Assembly (NCBI RefSeq): GCF_017427765.1
Contig: NZ_JAFRSC010000026.1
Span: 1-64,000, forward strand
DNA: 64,000 nt
Source: Methanobrevibacter sp.
Lineage (GTDB): Archaea > Methanobacteriota > Methanobacteria > Methanobacteriales > Methanobacteriaceae
Direction: 5' to 3'
Position numbers and translations under genes: made by a program. Numbering within the stretch: the stretch's first letter is position 1; each line of letters opens with the position of its first letter. Shown here in pieces: positions 6,549 through 11,455 of the stretch. The notes below the pieces were generated by a model. It did no database searches. It was not told the origin of the DNA and saw only the letters and a list, made by a program, of their open reading frames with translations.

Positions 6549-7196
6549 CTAATATATGACCATAATGCACATATAGGTAAATTCACTTTGAGCAATGTCT
6601 TTTAAAGTGGCTTCTACAATTTGCTCATCAGGGTAACTGAGACGTTCGCAGACAACAACTTTTCGATTTGGCTCAACGCCATTGTCAAGTAAAAACTGAG
6701 CCATGTCCTTCACTTTTCTTGAAGGAAGCGCAATGGTTGTCTTTCCATTGTTTATGACCGGCAGAATGTCTTCAATATTTTCCCTTCCATGAAAAGTCAT
6801 CACATTGGCATTGTCCCACTGAATGTGGCATCTTCCGGCAGCAAGCTGAAGTGAACTGATTCCGGGAATTACTTCGATATTGTCTTTATCAAATCCTTTT
6901 TCATCTGAAATTCTTAAAACTGTATTCAGCACTCCTGAAAAACCCGGATCGCCGGTTGATAATATGGAAACAGTATTTCCGTTGCAAGCTAGCTGAACAC
7001 CCTCTTCGATTTTATCCAATAAGTCTTTCACGTTAAAAGGAATTTTTCCTTTAACATCATCAAAAAGCTCTATTGCTCTTGTACTTCCAACAGTATAGTC
7101 GCTTGCATTTACTGTGTCAACAGCTTTTTTTGTTAGATATTCGCTTGCACCGGGACCAATTCCAACAATATAAATTTTTCCGCTCATTTTAACCAT
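6549..7196 (-). CDS. cbiE: Cobalt-precorrin-7 C5-methyltransferase CbiE
   Basis: A 215-residue SAM-dependent tetrapyrrole methyltransferase. It opens with the family's YIVGIGPGASEYLT loop near residues 9-22. LSTGDPGFSG is at about residues 93-102, and the glycine-rich VIPGISSLQLAAGR region is at about 130-145. Together these match the CbiE branch, which methylates C5 of cobalt-precorrin-7 in anaerobic cobamide synthesis. CbiT, the usual C15-methylating and decarboxylating partner, is not next to it. The ATG at 7196 follows AGGA on the minus strand and overlaps the end of the HxlR-type regulator gene by eight bases, so the two are probably co-transcribed, although a link between that regulator and cobamides is not obvious. 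Confidence 0.85.
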   Translation of the reverse strand: MVKMSGKIYIVGIGPGASEYLTKKAVDTVNASDYTVGSTRAIELFDDVKGKIPFNVKDLLDKIEEGVQLACNGNTVSILSTGDPGFSGVLNTVLRISDEKGFDKDNIEVIPGISSLQLAAGRCHIQWDNANVMTFHGRENIEDILPVINNGKTTIALPSRKVKDMAQFLLDNGVEPNRKVVVCERLSYPDEQIVEATLKDIAQSEFTYMCIMVIY

Positions 7197-7572
7197 CGAT
7201 TCCTAATTTTTCTATAAATGTTTCTTTTAGCATTTCTCTGGTTTCATCAGAATAGCTATTGTCATTTTCGTCATGTAAAGTAAACATTGCGAGTTCAAAG
7301 ACAATTCTGTTCATGGATTTTCCATATTCTGTCAGGTAATATTCTGTTGTCACTGGGGTGGTGTTTAAAACGACTTTTTCTATCAATCCATTTTCTTCCA
7401 GCTCTTTAAGGCAATTTGACAACACTTTATTGCTCAATTTTGGTTTATCTTCTTTAAACTCTTTGAAATGTTTTTTACCAAAAAACATGTCTCTTATGAT
7501 TTGTATGCTCCATTTTTTATTAATCAGATTCAGAGTTTTATCAACGGGACAAACTATCTTTTCGGTGTTCAT
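7189..7572 (-). CDS. HxlR-family winged-helix transcriptional regulator
   Basis: A 127-residue MarR/HxlR-type regulator. It has the N-terminal [20 protein letters not shown] motif with the conserved Cys9 and Lys-Trp, then [20 protein letters not shown] and the wing [14 protein letters not shown]. HxlR proteins commonly sense electrophiles or redox state through this N-terminal cysteine. The gene is divergent from the macrodomain/sirtuin pair, and the 133-bp spacer between them holds a perfect GTTACTT/AAGTAAC palindrome. It therefore probably controls itself and that pair. It overlaps cbiE downstream. Confidence 0.85.
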
Positions 7573-7610
7573 ATTATTAACTTTGTTTAAATGTTATATA
7601 TCTTTTGTTA

Positions 7611-7645
7611 GTTACTTTCAAGTAACCAGGTTGCTTTTTAGTTAC
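7611..7645. promoter_or_regulatory. Palindromic operator between HxlR regulator and macrodomain/sirtuin operon
   Basis: GTTACTT, TC, AAGTAAC at 7611-7626 is a perfect 7-bp inverted repeat with a 2-bp spacer. A further GTTAC at 7641-7645 can pair with the GTAAC at 7622-7626 as a second site. The position between two divergent starts fits a shared HxlR operator. A TATA-like TTTAAATATCTTAAATTA follows at about 7655. Confidence 0.5.
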
Positions 7646-7705
7646 AAAAATCATTTAAATATCTTAAATTATATTATTATTAACAAATTATTTGGAGGGA
7701 TTAAA

Positions 7706-8488
7706 ATTAAAACTGCTGAACAACTGGATTTTTTAATTAATTACTTGATTGATGAGAGAAATGAAGTTATTGATATTCCGAATGATATTCAATCTAAGAA
7801 AAATTTGTTACGATCTCTAATGAATATAAGAATGCCCTCTGAAGTTAGTGAGGAATTTTTAAACATTCAGGATGATTATTTGACAAATGAAACTTTAAAT
7901 AAGACTTTAACATCTTTAAATGATATTGAAGAGGTTAAAGGCAATGTTGCACTTTGGAAAGGAGATATTACAACCTTAAAGGTTGACGCAATCGTAAATG
8001 CCGCAAACTCAAAATTGCTTGGCTGTTTTATACCTATGCACAACTGCATTGACAATGTGATTCACTCAGCAGCCGGCGTTCAACTAAGGCAGGAGTGTAA
8101 TGAAATCATGCAAGGTTCAGACGAGCCAATCGGTAAAGCTAAAATCACAGATGCTTATAATCTACCTTCAAAATATGTAATTCACACTGTCGGTCCTGCA
8201 ATACCTCAGGGAATGCTTCCTTCTAAAGATGATGAGAATGCATTGGCTAGCTGTTATAGGTCATGTTTGGAAATTGCCGATGAATATGACCTTGAATCTA
8301 TTGCATTCTGCGGTATTTCAACAGGGGTTTTTAATTTTCCACAGGATTTGGCAGCCAGAATTGCCATTAACACAGTAGAAGAATATTTAAAATCACATGA
8401 AACAGATTTGCATGTAATCTTTGATGTATTTTCAGAGGAATCATATTCAATATATAAAAACTTATTGTGGGGGGATGAAGATGGATAA
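7706..8488 (+). CDS. Zinc-dependent macrodomain protein-ADP-ribose hydrolase
   Basis: A 260-residue protein. An N-terminal helical region ([19 protein letters not shown]) leads into a macrodomain from about residue 70. It shows [21 protein letters not shown], then the zinc-macrodomain insertion [16 protein letters not shown] with candidate Zn ligands His and Cys, and a later [10 protein letters not shown] phosphate loop. This subtype removes ADP-ribose placed by class M sirtuins, one of which is encoded immediately downstream with an 8-base overlap. No ATG, GTG or TTG sits at the N-terminus. GGAGGG (7694-7699) is 6 bases before an ATT codon at 7706, which is the best start candidate. The longer open frame upstream overlaps the divergent regulator and is not credible. 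Confidence 0.82.
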
Positions 8489-9332
8489 ATTCGTTTTAAG
8501 ACTAGACAATGCTATTAAAGCTATAAATGATGCTGATTATATAATTATTGGTGCTGGTGCAGGATTTTCGGCAGCCGCAGGTATAGAGTATTCGGGAAAA
8601 CGTTTTGATGATAATTTCCAGGATTTCATTGAAAAATATGGGGTTCAGGATATGTATTCTGCAACCTTTTATCCATATGGGACTCAGGAAGAGAAATGGG
8701 CTCATTGGGCTCGTCATGTCTATGTAAACAGATATTCAGTTGGAAAAACAAAATTATATGGTCAGTTGCTTGATTTAGTAAAGAATAAGGATTATTTTGT
8801 CTTAACAACCAATGTTGAGCATCAATTTTGGATAAATGGCTTTGAAGATGAGAGAATTTTTGCAACTCAGGGGGATTATGGGCTCATGCAGTGTGCCACA
8901 GCCTGTCATGATAAATTGTATTCGAATGAAGAACTTGTTTTAGAAGCTATTGAAAAAACCGAAAACTGTAGGATTCCGTCTGATTTGGTTCCGGTATGTC
9001 CTGTTTGCGGCGGGAATATGGAAATTAATGTCAGAAAGGACAATTTCTTTGTTGAGGATGAAAAATGGCATGAAATGAGCGAAAATTATTCTAAATTCTT
9101 ACAGGGTGTTGACGAAAATAAAAATATTGTATTTCTTGAGTTGGGTGTAGGCTTTAACACTCCAGCCATTATAAGATATCCCTTTGAACAGATGACCTAT
9201 AATTATCCAAACACTACATTAATCAGATTAAATAGGGATTATCCTCAAGCAATTCCTGAAAACAGGGATAAGACAATAAGCTTTGATGAGGAAATTTCTG
9301 AGGTGTTTGATTATTGGATCAGTAGGATTTAA
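8481..9332 (+). CDS. Sirtuin-like (SirTM-type) ADP-ribosyltransferase candidate
   Basis: A 283-residue SIR2-fold protein. The NAD-binding start is [20 protein letters not shown] near residues 14-33, and the TTNVEHQF motif is near residue 112. Where ordinary deacetylase sirtuins carry the catalytic His-Gly, this protein reads FATQGDYG, with Gln in place of His, as in class M (SirTM) enzymes that ADP-ribosylate protein. A CATAC and CPVCGG pair gives a four-cysteine zinc site. It overlaps the macrodomain gene by eight bases, the transferase/hydrolase pairing known for SirTM operons. The GcvH-L and lipoate ligase genes usual in bacterial SirTM operons are absent here. The start at 8481 follows GGGGG with good spacing. 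Confidence 0.8.
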
Positions 9333-11455
9333 ATATTTTTTAAATTCTCTATTTCTTTTTTTAAAAATCCATATATGGATTCTGCTCCAATTAGCTCTCC
9401 GGGATTTTCCCATTCATGAGGGTATAAAATAAACGGTTTAGTTTGGTTTCCTCCAAGTCCTCCGTGACTTCCAATCAGTTCTTCAAATGCGCAAACTTCA
9501 TCATTTTCCGAATCATAAAAACTGTTCACCAGAATATCAGGCATATTGTCGAATGCATTTTGTCTTTTTAGATGTCTGGAAGCATTTTTTCCAAACCCTT
9601 CAAGAGGGTCTTCTCCGACTATTTTTTCATTATCAATATAGTTTATTCCATTTTTACCTATTGCCATTGCGCCATTGTTTATGGAGTTTACAAGTATAAA
9701 CCCAATGCCTGAATGTTTAACAAGACCCGGAATCAAATCAGGAAATAGCATTACAATTTCTTCGTAGCTTAAACGTTGTTTCCATTGTGTCAAATAGATT
9801 AATCCCATATTTCCGGATCCTAAAACTATTAATTCGGAATCCTTTACTTTTTTTGTGTCGTGCTCAACACTTTCGTGGCCCCGGATGTAATCTAGACTGT
9901 TGGCGTATTTTTCCCGCAGATTAATGTACTGTTCATTTTCAAAGATTATTGCAGGTTTTCTGTTTTCTATTTCTTTTCTGATGTTTTGAATTGATTTGTT
10001 TTCATCAAATAAATTGTAGCGAATATCTCCAACTTTTTCTTTAATATTTTTTATCTGTTTATTTTCCGGAATGACTGCATCTCTAAAGTGGTCAATGTTG
10101 TACTTTGTTTTAAATATTTTCAAATCCTCGGGAAGCAATCTTCTAACGTAATCTCCCAGTGTCATTCCATATCTCTGTTTGAATGTTGCGCCAAAACTCT
10201 GTCCATGATCGGATAACACCACTAACTTATAGTCTCTGTCACTCATCTCAATAGCAGAGGAAAGTCTTTGGAATTGAAGGTCAATTTGTTTTAAAACACT
10301 CCAAACATCGTCATCTTCTACTCCTGAGTGATGAGCTACTTCATCATAACCCATAAATGTTGCATAAGCAGTATCAATGTTTCCTGTCAATATTTCGCCG
10401 GTTAGGATTTCTGTAGTAGCTTCTCTTAAAACCACATTAGCTCCTGCTCTAACGGCAGCATAAACTATTGTTCTTCTAATCTTGGGTTGAATATTTTTTA
10501 TATAATGAACAATTTGTGATTTTAACTCAAGGATAATATCCCACAAGAATAGAACGAAAATTCTGGGGAAATTGTAGGTGTCTAAAAATACTGTGTGCAA
10601 ACTTTTACTGTAGATTCTTTTTAATCCCTCCAATTTGGATGATGTTAATGTGGTTAGTTTGCTGTCTCCGGAAAACATGTTGGCAATGCTTATCCCGTCT
10701 ACAAGCAGACCTTCCCCATTACTTATTCTCTTTTCAATTTCAGGAGTGTCGCTTAATTTTCCAGAAACTATTATCCGATTGTCATTTTCTTTTTCAACCC
10801 ATCTGTATGCCACAATGTTTTTATTGTTTCCGTGCAGGATTCCAGCTTGGCTTGCTCCGGTTTGTGAGGACAAATCAGTTTCCCATTCCTTAAGGGTATG
10901 TGTTTTTTCATCTAACCACAGTTTTAAATTAGGCATGACTCCTTTATCTATGGCTTTTTGTAACGTGTTTTTTGACAGACCATCAATTTCAAGCATTATA
11001 ACTCCAGGATATCTTTTTTTATATGCAGTTTTTCTTTTTAAAGCATATTTTAAAATGTTTTTCATGTAACTGTCAAAGTAGTTTGTGTGGGTAGTGTTTA
11101 TCACAAATGTTGTAACTATTGCCATCACTATCGGAACTTGAAGCGCTCCATAAAAGCCGACATAAACTCCCGGAATAAAATATGCTGCGATATAAAATAT
11201 CAGTGAATTAATAAACAGGTTTGCGATACCTAATGTGAATATGATAAATTTCATTAGAAATCTCTGAAAAATAGGCCATAGCAGTGAATTTGCAATTGAT
11301 ACAGCAATTACAATTATGATGGCATTATACCAAGGACCGACTGTAAAATCAGCGCTGATGTAATCTGTTGCATATATTGCTATTATATTGGCTAATGCCA
11401 GCAGCAAATATGTTATTAATGTCCTTGAGTATGAAATTAATCTATTTTTAATCAT
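9329..11455 (-). CDS. Membrane-anchored alkaline phosphatase-superfamily protein
   Basis: A 708-residue fusion. The N-terminal part (about residues 1-125) has four transmembrane helices and resembles the PF04020 phage-holin-like membrane family. The rest is a phosphodiesterase/alkaline phosphatase-superfamily domain starting at PGVIMLEIDGLSKNTL (about residue 150), with the metal-site motif DLSSQTGASQAGILHG and the later FMGYDEVAHHSGV and VVLSDHGQS metal ligands. It probably acts at the outer membrane face on a phosphorylated envelope or nucleotide substrate. Its start overlaps the stop of the metallophosphoesterase gene upstream by four bases, so the two hydrolases form an operon. It converges with the sirtuin gene, the two stops overlapping by four bases. 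Confidence 0.8.
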   Translation of the reverse strand: MIKNRLISYSRTLITYLLLALANIIAIYATDYISADFTVGPWYNAIIIVIAVSIANSLLWPIFQRFLMKFIIFTLGIANLFINSLIFYIAAYFIPGVYVGFYGALQVPIVMAIVTTFVINTTHTNYFDSYMKNILKYALKRKTAYKKRYPGVIMLEIDGLSKNTLQKAIDKGVMPNLKLWLDEKTHTLKEWETDLSSQTGASQAGILHGNNKNIVAYRWVEKENDNRIIVSGKLSDTPEIEKRISNGEGLLVDGISIANMFSGDSKLTTLTSSKLEGLKRIYSKSLHTVFLDTYNFPRIFVLFLWDIILELKSQIVHYIKNIQPKIRRTIVYAAVRAGANVVLREATTEILTGEILTGNIDTAYATFMGYDEVAHHSGVEDDDVWSVLKQIDLQFQRLSSAIEMSDRDYKLVVLSDHGQSFGATFKQRYGMTLGDYVRRLLPEDLKIFKTKYNIDHFRDAVIPENKQIKNIKEKVGDIRYNLFDENKSIQNIRKEIENRKPAIIFENEQYINLREKYANSLDYIRGHESVEHDTKKVKDSELIVLGSGNMGLIYLTQWKQRLSYEEIVMLFPDLIPGLVKHSGIGFILVNSINNGAMAIGKNGINYIDNEKIVGEDPLEGFGKNASRHLKRQNAFDNMPDILVNSFYDSENDEVCAFEELIGSHGGLGGNQTKPFILYPHEWENPGELIGAESIYGFLKKEIENLKNI

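Follow-up and report, generated by a model that had tools for sequence, protein, structure and literature searches.

The adjacent macrodomain and sirtuin genes of a Methanobrevibacter sp. contig probably encode a reversible ADP-ribosylation cycle that is controlled by an HxlR-family regulator, responds to redox or electrophile stress and is co-regulated with a flavoprotein; from sequence comparison, we put the probability of this reading at roughly two in three. In the proposed cycle, the class-M sirtuin (SirTM) would transfer ADP-ribose from NAD onto a non-lipoyl protein, and the Zn-macrodomain would remove the tag. HxlR would act on tandem dyads between divergent promoters and co-regulate the Macro-SirTM pair and an unlinked gene for a NimA-like PNPOx protein. 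Thiol-oxidising or electrophilic stress, likely sensed at the N-terminal cysteine of HxlR, would alter the regulator, whereupon Macro-SirTM and the PNPOx flavoprotein would change together and set the ADP-ribosylation of the non-lipoyl protein. In many species, including that of the DNA analysed here, an AUU or AUA start codon may keep translation of the eraser low and thereby tip the balance towards the modified state as long as transcription is not induced.

The window, by which we mean the whole stretch of 64,000 nucleotides analysed, comes from contig 44 of a 2.5-Mb genome with a listed assembly contamination of 7.8%; despite this figure, synteny backs the contig's membership, and homologues together with the gene order place it among Methanobrevibacter-like methanogens. 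All evidence is comparative, and the comparison set includes many metagenome-assembled, incomplete genomes. The locus contains the following features:

6549..7196, minus strand: CbiE cobalt-precorrin methyltransferase gene, a conserved neighbour with an 8-nt overlap with the HxlR gene
7189..7572, minus strand: HxlR-family regulator of 127 aa with Cys8 in a CPV motif and Cys54, from profile and homologue matches
7594..7601, minus strand: TATA-like box ATATATAA (minus strand), putative HxlR promoter, from sequence only
7611..7626, strand-neutral: operator dyad 1 GTTACTTTCAAGTAAC, from sequence, genus conservation and genome scans
7630..7645, strand-neutral: operator dyad 2 GTTGCTTTTTAGTTAC, 19 bp from dyad 1, from sequence, genus conservation and scans
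7654..7661, plus strand: TATA-like box TTTAAATA, putative Macro-SirTM promoter, directly 3' of dyad 2 (genus form ATCATTTAAATA)
7694..7699, plus strand: Shine-Dalgarno sequence GGAGGG, 6 nt 5' of the ATT codon and kept in relatives
7706..8488, plus strand: predicted Zn-macrodomain ADP-ribosyl hydrolase (eraser), from family matches, 8RSI, the zinc motif and an ATT at the position of the sister-species ATG
8481..9332, plus strand: SirTM class-M sirtuin, presumed mono-ADP-ribosyltransferase (writer), with an ATG start, from the 5A3A match, N111/Q130/R185 and a Cys4 zinc site

A synteny comparison showed that the gene order CbiE-HxlR / Macro-SirTM / PDE is kept across the genus, where the Macro-SirTM pair is present in 46 of 67 genomes. 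The syntenic phosphodiesterase (PDE)-type protein, encoded at 9329-11455 (minus strand) and convergent with SirTM, carries a Phage_holin_4_2 membrane domain. CbiE, which is probably outside the function of the module, and an OBG-type GTPase gene lie beside the pair in conserved vertical synteny, and the setting is not mobile. This setting bears on the alternative that the pair is a toxin-antitoxin or anti-phage system: SirTM would deplete NAD or hit a vital target, and the macrodomain would protect, as in DarT/DarG. A transferase and a hydrolase in overlapping genes would suit such a unit, and some tandem or lone SirTM copies exist. However, the vertical synteny with CbiE and the GTPase gene in these 46 genomes argues against it, the known SirTM is substrate-specific (PMC4518038), and neither protein was matched by any PADLOC model, on which ground a defence system was rejected. 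We consider this reading very unlikely.

The macro protein matched Pfam PF01661 (127.7 bits) and the NCBIfam protein-ADP-ribose hydrolase NF003163 (352 bits, cut-off 272), and its top PDB match was MorMacro from Methanobrevibacter oralis (8RSI, E=3e-113). The eight-residue zinc motif of the catalytic loop, C107-x4-H112-x-C114, is present in the window and in 70 of 70 family homologues. At the level of sequence, the alignment to 8RSI (residues 4-256) also includes the N-terminal region that forms the three-helix bundle typical of Zn-Macro proteins. The sirtuin had no Pfam match; phmmer aligned it to SpySirTM (5A3A, E=1.6e-55). The SpySirTM residues N118, Q137 and R192, mutation of each of which cuts activity strongly (PMC4518038), correspond to N111, Q130 and R185 in the window. 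N111 and R185 are invariant in sirtuin alignment A1, and glutamine replaces the catalytic histidine (QG motif) in 72 of 74 SirTM homologues, the remaining two being outside the pattern used. The macro and SirTM genes overlap by 8 nt (8481-8488), a linkage kept across the genus. The preliminary description had proposed a sirtuin with glutamine for the catalytic histidine next to a zinc-type macrodomain, and a match to the SirTM-type reversible ADP-ribosylation module. Our results confirm the pair as a class-M sirtuin and a Zn-macrodomain by family and residue, and from this homology we infer the two enzyme activities. Were the sirtuin instead an ordinary NAD-dependent deacylase, the macrodomain would clear O-acetyl-ADP-ribose, which macrodomains are able to bind; a weak NCBIfam deacylase match (20.7 bits, cut-off 243) points the same way. 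The near-universal glutamine speaks against this, as does SpySirTM, which has no deacylase activity and loses its transferase activity upon the Q137H mutation (PMC4518038), so that deacylation appears highly improbable.

In a tree of SirTM with bacterial copies, nearly all methanogen copies grouped together; because of its long branches, neither a donor nor a direction of transfer can be read from it. Four loci of another genus in the family carry a second, tandem SirTM-like gene (L037 7603-8466, L038 7009-7911, L099 1984-2844, L103 6662-7522), whose NAD loop is degraded (GGEYLSEQ or similar) and in which, in three of the four cases, N replaces the catalytic Q; this paralogue may be catalytically dead. 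L051 (G047:C16:17500-30500) holds a divergent SirTM on its own (36% identity) amid several HxlR, FMN reductase and PNPOx-like genes.

Class-M sirtuins and the extended operon were defined by Rack et al. 2015 (PMC4518038). The extended operon of Staphylococcus and Streptococcus (GcvH-L, Zn-Macro, SirTM, LplA2, OYE, LLM; PMC4518038) resembles the methanogen system in its writer/eraser pair, its flavin oxidoreductases and its connection to oxidative stress; instead of OYE and LLM, however, the methanogen system has a PNPOx/NimA-like flavoprotein and HxlR. As noted in the preliminary description, GcvH-L and a lipoate ligase are missing at the locus, which is a lone pair, and searches with PF01597 and PF21948 found neither in the rest of the genome nor in the genus. 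The sole PF01597 match in the genome (22.3 bits, cut-off 22.2) covers 43 residues inside a 574-aa frame and is best read as a biotinyl domain. PF21948 had no match in the genome and gave only weak BirA-like matches in the genus, mostly in ~310-aa frames of biotin-ligase size. Since these weak matches resemble biotinyl domains and BirA-sized proteins, we rejected the possibility that the genome encodes GcvH or a lipoate ligase as a partner at another site, and the absence of both from genome and genus excludes a lipoyl-carrier target.

Ariza et al. 2024 described the SirTM/Zn-Macro pair alone ("minimal operon"), in extended operons, or fused (PMC11490716), and the window holds the first of these forms. 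The lone pair without lipoyl genes that the preliminary description pointed out is therefore already described and not new; a minimal-operon Methanobrevibacter Zn-Macro has even been studied by crystallography and activity assays, so the lack of lipoyl genes is the normal state of a known sub-branch and no anomaly. MorMacro (8RSI, 8RSJ, 8RSK) is a close homologue with the same two genes, the same zinc motif, no lipoyl genes and a numbering (N101, D116) that matches the window protein if the ATT at 7706 is codon 1; its structure was solved, and it did not demodify GcvH-L but was active on PARP1 E988Q (PMC11490716). The same authors name GcvH-L as the sole SirTM substrate known so far, the targets of other SirTM/Zn-Macro systems being unknown (PMC11490716). 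The methanogens concerned are without lipoylated GcvH altogether. Neither a regulator nor an operator, a flavoprotein co-target or a start codon is mentioned in the main text of that paper, and the terms HxlR and "pyridox" are absent from it. In the open-access literature, we found no paper connecting HxlR with a macrodomain, a sirtuin or PNPOx. Judged against that literature, the genus-wide operator at two promoters, its counterpart in gut Clostridia and the near-cognate macro starts are new.

The regulator matched PF01638 (79 bits), and its relatives in the PDB include YodB and QsrR. YodB senses quinones at Cys6 and prefers the operator TACT-N7-AGTA (PMC8063818). Between the two divergent TATA-like boxes, the two 7-bp arms of dyad 1 match perfectly about a centre of 2 nt, while dyad 2, likewise 16 bp, is imperfect. 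The perfect palindrome reported earlier for 7611-7645 is thus a conserved operator with a perfect first dyad, but it consists of two 16-bp dyads 19 bp apart, the second of them imperfect. The consensus GTTAC-N6-GTAAC, tandem with 19-bp spacing, is kept in the genus, where GTTACTTTnnnGTAAC-nnn-GTTnCnnnnnnGTTAC and then ATCATTTAAATA recur throughout in this order; this conservation is not chance. HxlR would bind these dyads, and because they lie directly next to the BRE/TATA region from which the macro gene would be transcribed, either repression or activation would fit. The thiol regulators YodB, QsrR and HypR (HxlR/DUF24), which control flavin reductase genes, resemble this system in the HxlR fold, N-terminal cysteine motif, palindromic operator and flavoprotein targets (PMC8063818). 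In contrast to them, the methanogen system has a tandem GTTAC-N6-GTAAC operator 19 bp apart, archaeal promoters and an ADP-ribosylation pair in its regulon.

Scanning the window's own genome for GTWAC-N6-GTWAC yielded 11 sites, including the macro promoter, one site before an HxlR paralogue (contig C22) and a tandem pair with 19-bp spacing before a PNPOx-type gene on C43, a contig other than the window's, where the tandem site occupies 76554-76588; the remaining sites look incidental. The C22 region (L297, G000:C22:1-12000) contains HxlR paralogues, one of them with the same dyad upstream, close to the gene of a PNPOx-like protein whose length of 203 aa corresponds to that of the Clostridial PNPOx-ferredoxin fusions. 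Across the family, a dyad lay ≤250 bp upstream of 30/30 PNPOx orthologues sampled, compared with a shuffled-sequence chance of 0.07% per promoter. The tandem operator, scanned with up to two mismatches in 67 genus genomes, occurred at 59 distinct places, which comprised 38 Macro promoters, 21 PNPOx promoters and none elsewhere (backwards-pattern control, 10 matches); because the PNPOx dyads had been seen before scanning, the result speaks to completeness more than it bears out a blind prediction.

The 8-nt overlap of HxlR with the co-directional CbiE gene and the synteny of both could mean that HxlR belongs with CbiE and lies next to the macro gene incidentally. Several rearranged loci contradict this reading, which we regard as hardly tenable. 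The operator persists at Macro without a local HxlR in L065, L075 and L076, and in L052, L077, L081 and L102 HxlR is the first gene of the Macro-SirTM operon, shares its strand and diverges from PNPOx. In three genomes HxlR lies next to PNPOx without CbiE: in G047, one of the genomes whose macro locus has no HxlR but has retained the operator, PNPOx and an HxlR gene with 73% identity to that of the window diverge from a tandem operator between them, and in G042 and G101, which have no SirTM, an HxlR ~58-60% identical to the window's adjoins the PNPOx gene. The Clostridial HxlR-SirTM linkage is likewise independent of CbiE. Because of such rearrangements (G042, G047, G101, L052, L065 etc.), HxlR, the operator, Macro-SirTM and PNPOx are tied independently of CbiE. 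Together with the dyad conservation, they support the earlier suggestion that the divergent HxlR would act through the palindrome. In G060 (C27:42576-42832), a PNPOx orthologue next to HxlR is decaying, with in-frame stops, while the tandem operator is still there.

We further considered whether SirTM modifies the PNPOx-type flavoprotein itself, in place of GcvH-L, so that writer and eraser would switch the activity of this protein. The common operator agrees with this, as does co-presence (PNPOx in 21/46 SirTM-positive vs 2/21 SirTM-negative genus genomes, p=0.005, uncorrected for phylogeny), and in Clostridial operons PNPOx or PNPOx-ferredoxin is often directly 5' of Macro. However, a close orthologue is absent from 25/46 SirTM-positive genus genomes, some of them ~99% complete, so PNPOx cannot be the sole substrate, and as an obligate partner it was rejected. 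PNPOx also occurs without SirTM in G042 and G101, and other Clostridial loci have a nitroreductase or DUF1848 gene at that position. We therefore judge a PNPOx substrate unlikely and retain the co-regulated cycle acting on a non-lipoyl protein.

A genome-contig scan provided 80 bacterial loci, nearly all from Clostridia, and plasmid records another six. Among 43 loci with ≥4 kb on both sides, HxlR preceded the pair in 23, always divergently, and followed it in 2; for PNPOx the counts were 21 upstream and 1 downstream. The gene directly 5' of Clostridial Macro often encodes a PNPOx-ferredoxin fusion and otherwise, e.g., a nitroreductase or DUF1848 protein. GTTWC-N6-GKWAC was present in 18/34 Clostridial HxlR promoters (shuffling chance 0.2%), although part of this cross-domain match may reflect the regulator family, because palindromes with a TAC/GTA core are common among operators of the HxlR type, for example that of YodB (PMC8063818). 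In L240, PNPOx, Macro and SirTM follow one another in a single run, HxlR diverges from them, and GTTACCTGAAAGTAAC lies in between. In the Enterococcus and Treponema plasmid loci, a PNPOx gene is close to the pair, and the nearby regulator is Rrf2.

The operator before a NimA-like PNPOx gene, the Clostridial flavoprotein genes and the N-terminal HxlR cysteine, found in a CP[VI] motif in 49/49 homologues, favour redox or electrophile control as put forward in the preliminary description; an N-terminal cysteine is, however, frequent in HxlR proteins generally, redox-sensing or not. If the proposed cycle operates, its defined regulon would narrow the substrate search, with co-regulated flavoproteins, HxlR and redox stress providing candidates and inducing conditions. 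More tentatively, HxlR, the dyad, the PNPOx-type protein, Zn-Macro and SirTM may form a cross-domain redox module in which ADP-ribosylation controls a flavin/Fe-S reductase or its partner rather than a lipoyl protein and methanogens tune the eraser by repeated switches between AUG and AUU/AUA starts; we hold this extended version to be possible rather than probable.

For neighbours in other genera, a shared operator was rejected: dyads near DUF169 genes can mostly be put down to the macro promoter next to them, and GPx, alpha/beta-hydrolase and c29 neighbours had no shared operator upstream. In genus g12 (L044-L048, L105-L108), Macro-SirTM is found beside glutathione-peroxidase-like, flavodoxin-like and alpha/beta hydrolase genes; there is no nearby HxlR, and GTAAC/GTTAC dyads precede Macro in several of these loci.

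Finally, the macro reading frame contains no ATG, GTG or TTG near its N-terminus, and its probable start is the ATT at 7706-7708. At this position and the homologous codons in L054-L097, near-cognate AUH alternates with AUG. The codon homologous to ATG is non-canonical in 25/44 genus loci (ATT 11, ATA 13, ATC 1), and the AUH codons lie ~6 nt 3' of a GGAGG-type Shine-Dalgarno sequence. In L074 and L085, a stop codon directly 5' of the ATT makes an in-frame start further upstream impossible. Control genes of the same loci showed 0/231 non-canonical starts (SirTM 45, HxlR 41, CbiE 39, PDE 36, MPE 38, adhesin-like 32; OBG was left out because its reference start was mis-set). A tree required at least 11 AUG/AUH changes, 5 of them forced by well-supported branches. 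These counts show a tolerated, recurrent codon, and selection does not follow from them. Archaeal initiation complexes on codons other than AUG are reportedly disfavoured by aIF1 (PMC6237735), so an AUH start would most naturally mean low translation, and the near-cognate codon may throttle the eraser. If this holds, the switching between AUG and AUU/AUA would be an archaeal case of conserved near-cognate initiation. If N-terminal peptides confirm the pattern, it would offer a natural system for archaeal start-codon fidelity, and gene callers restricted to ATG, GTG and TTG would mis-start the macro gene. Bacterial infC has a near-cognate AUU start, which follows a strong Shine-Dalgarno sequence as in the methanogen macro gene; the latter differs in being archaeal and of unrelated function and in alternating AUG, AUU, AUA and AUC between species. 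The PNPOx genes of L135 and L137 also have ATA at their start.
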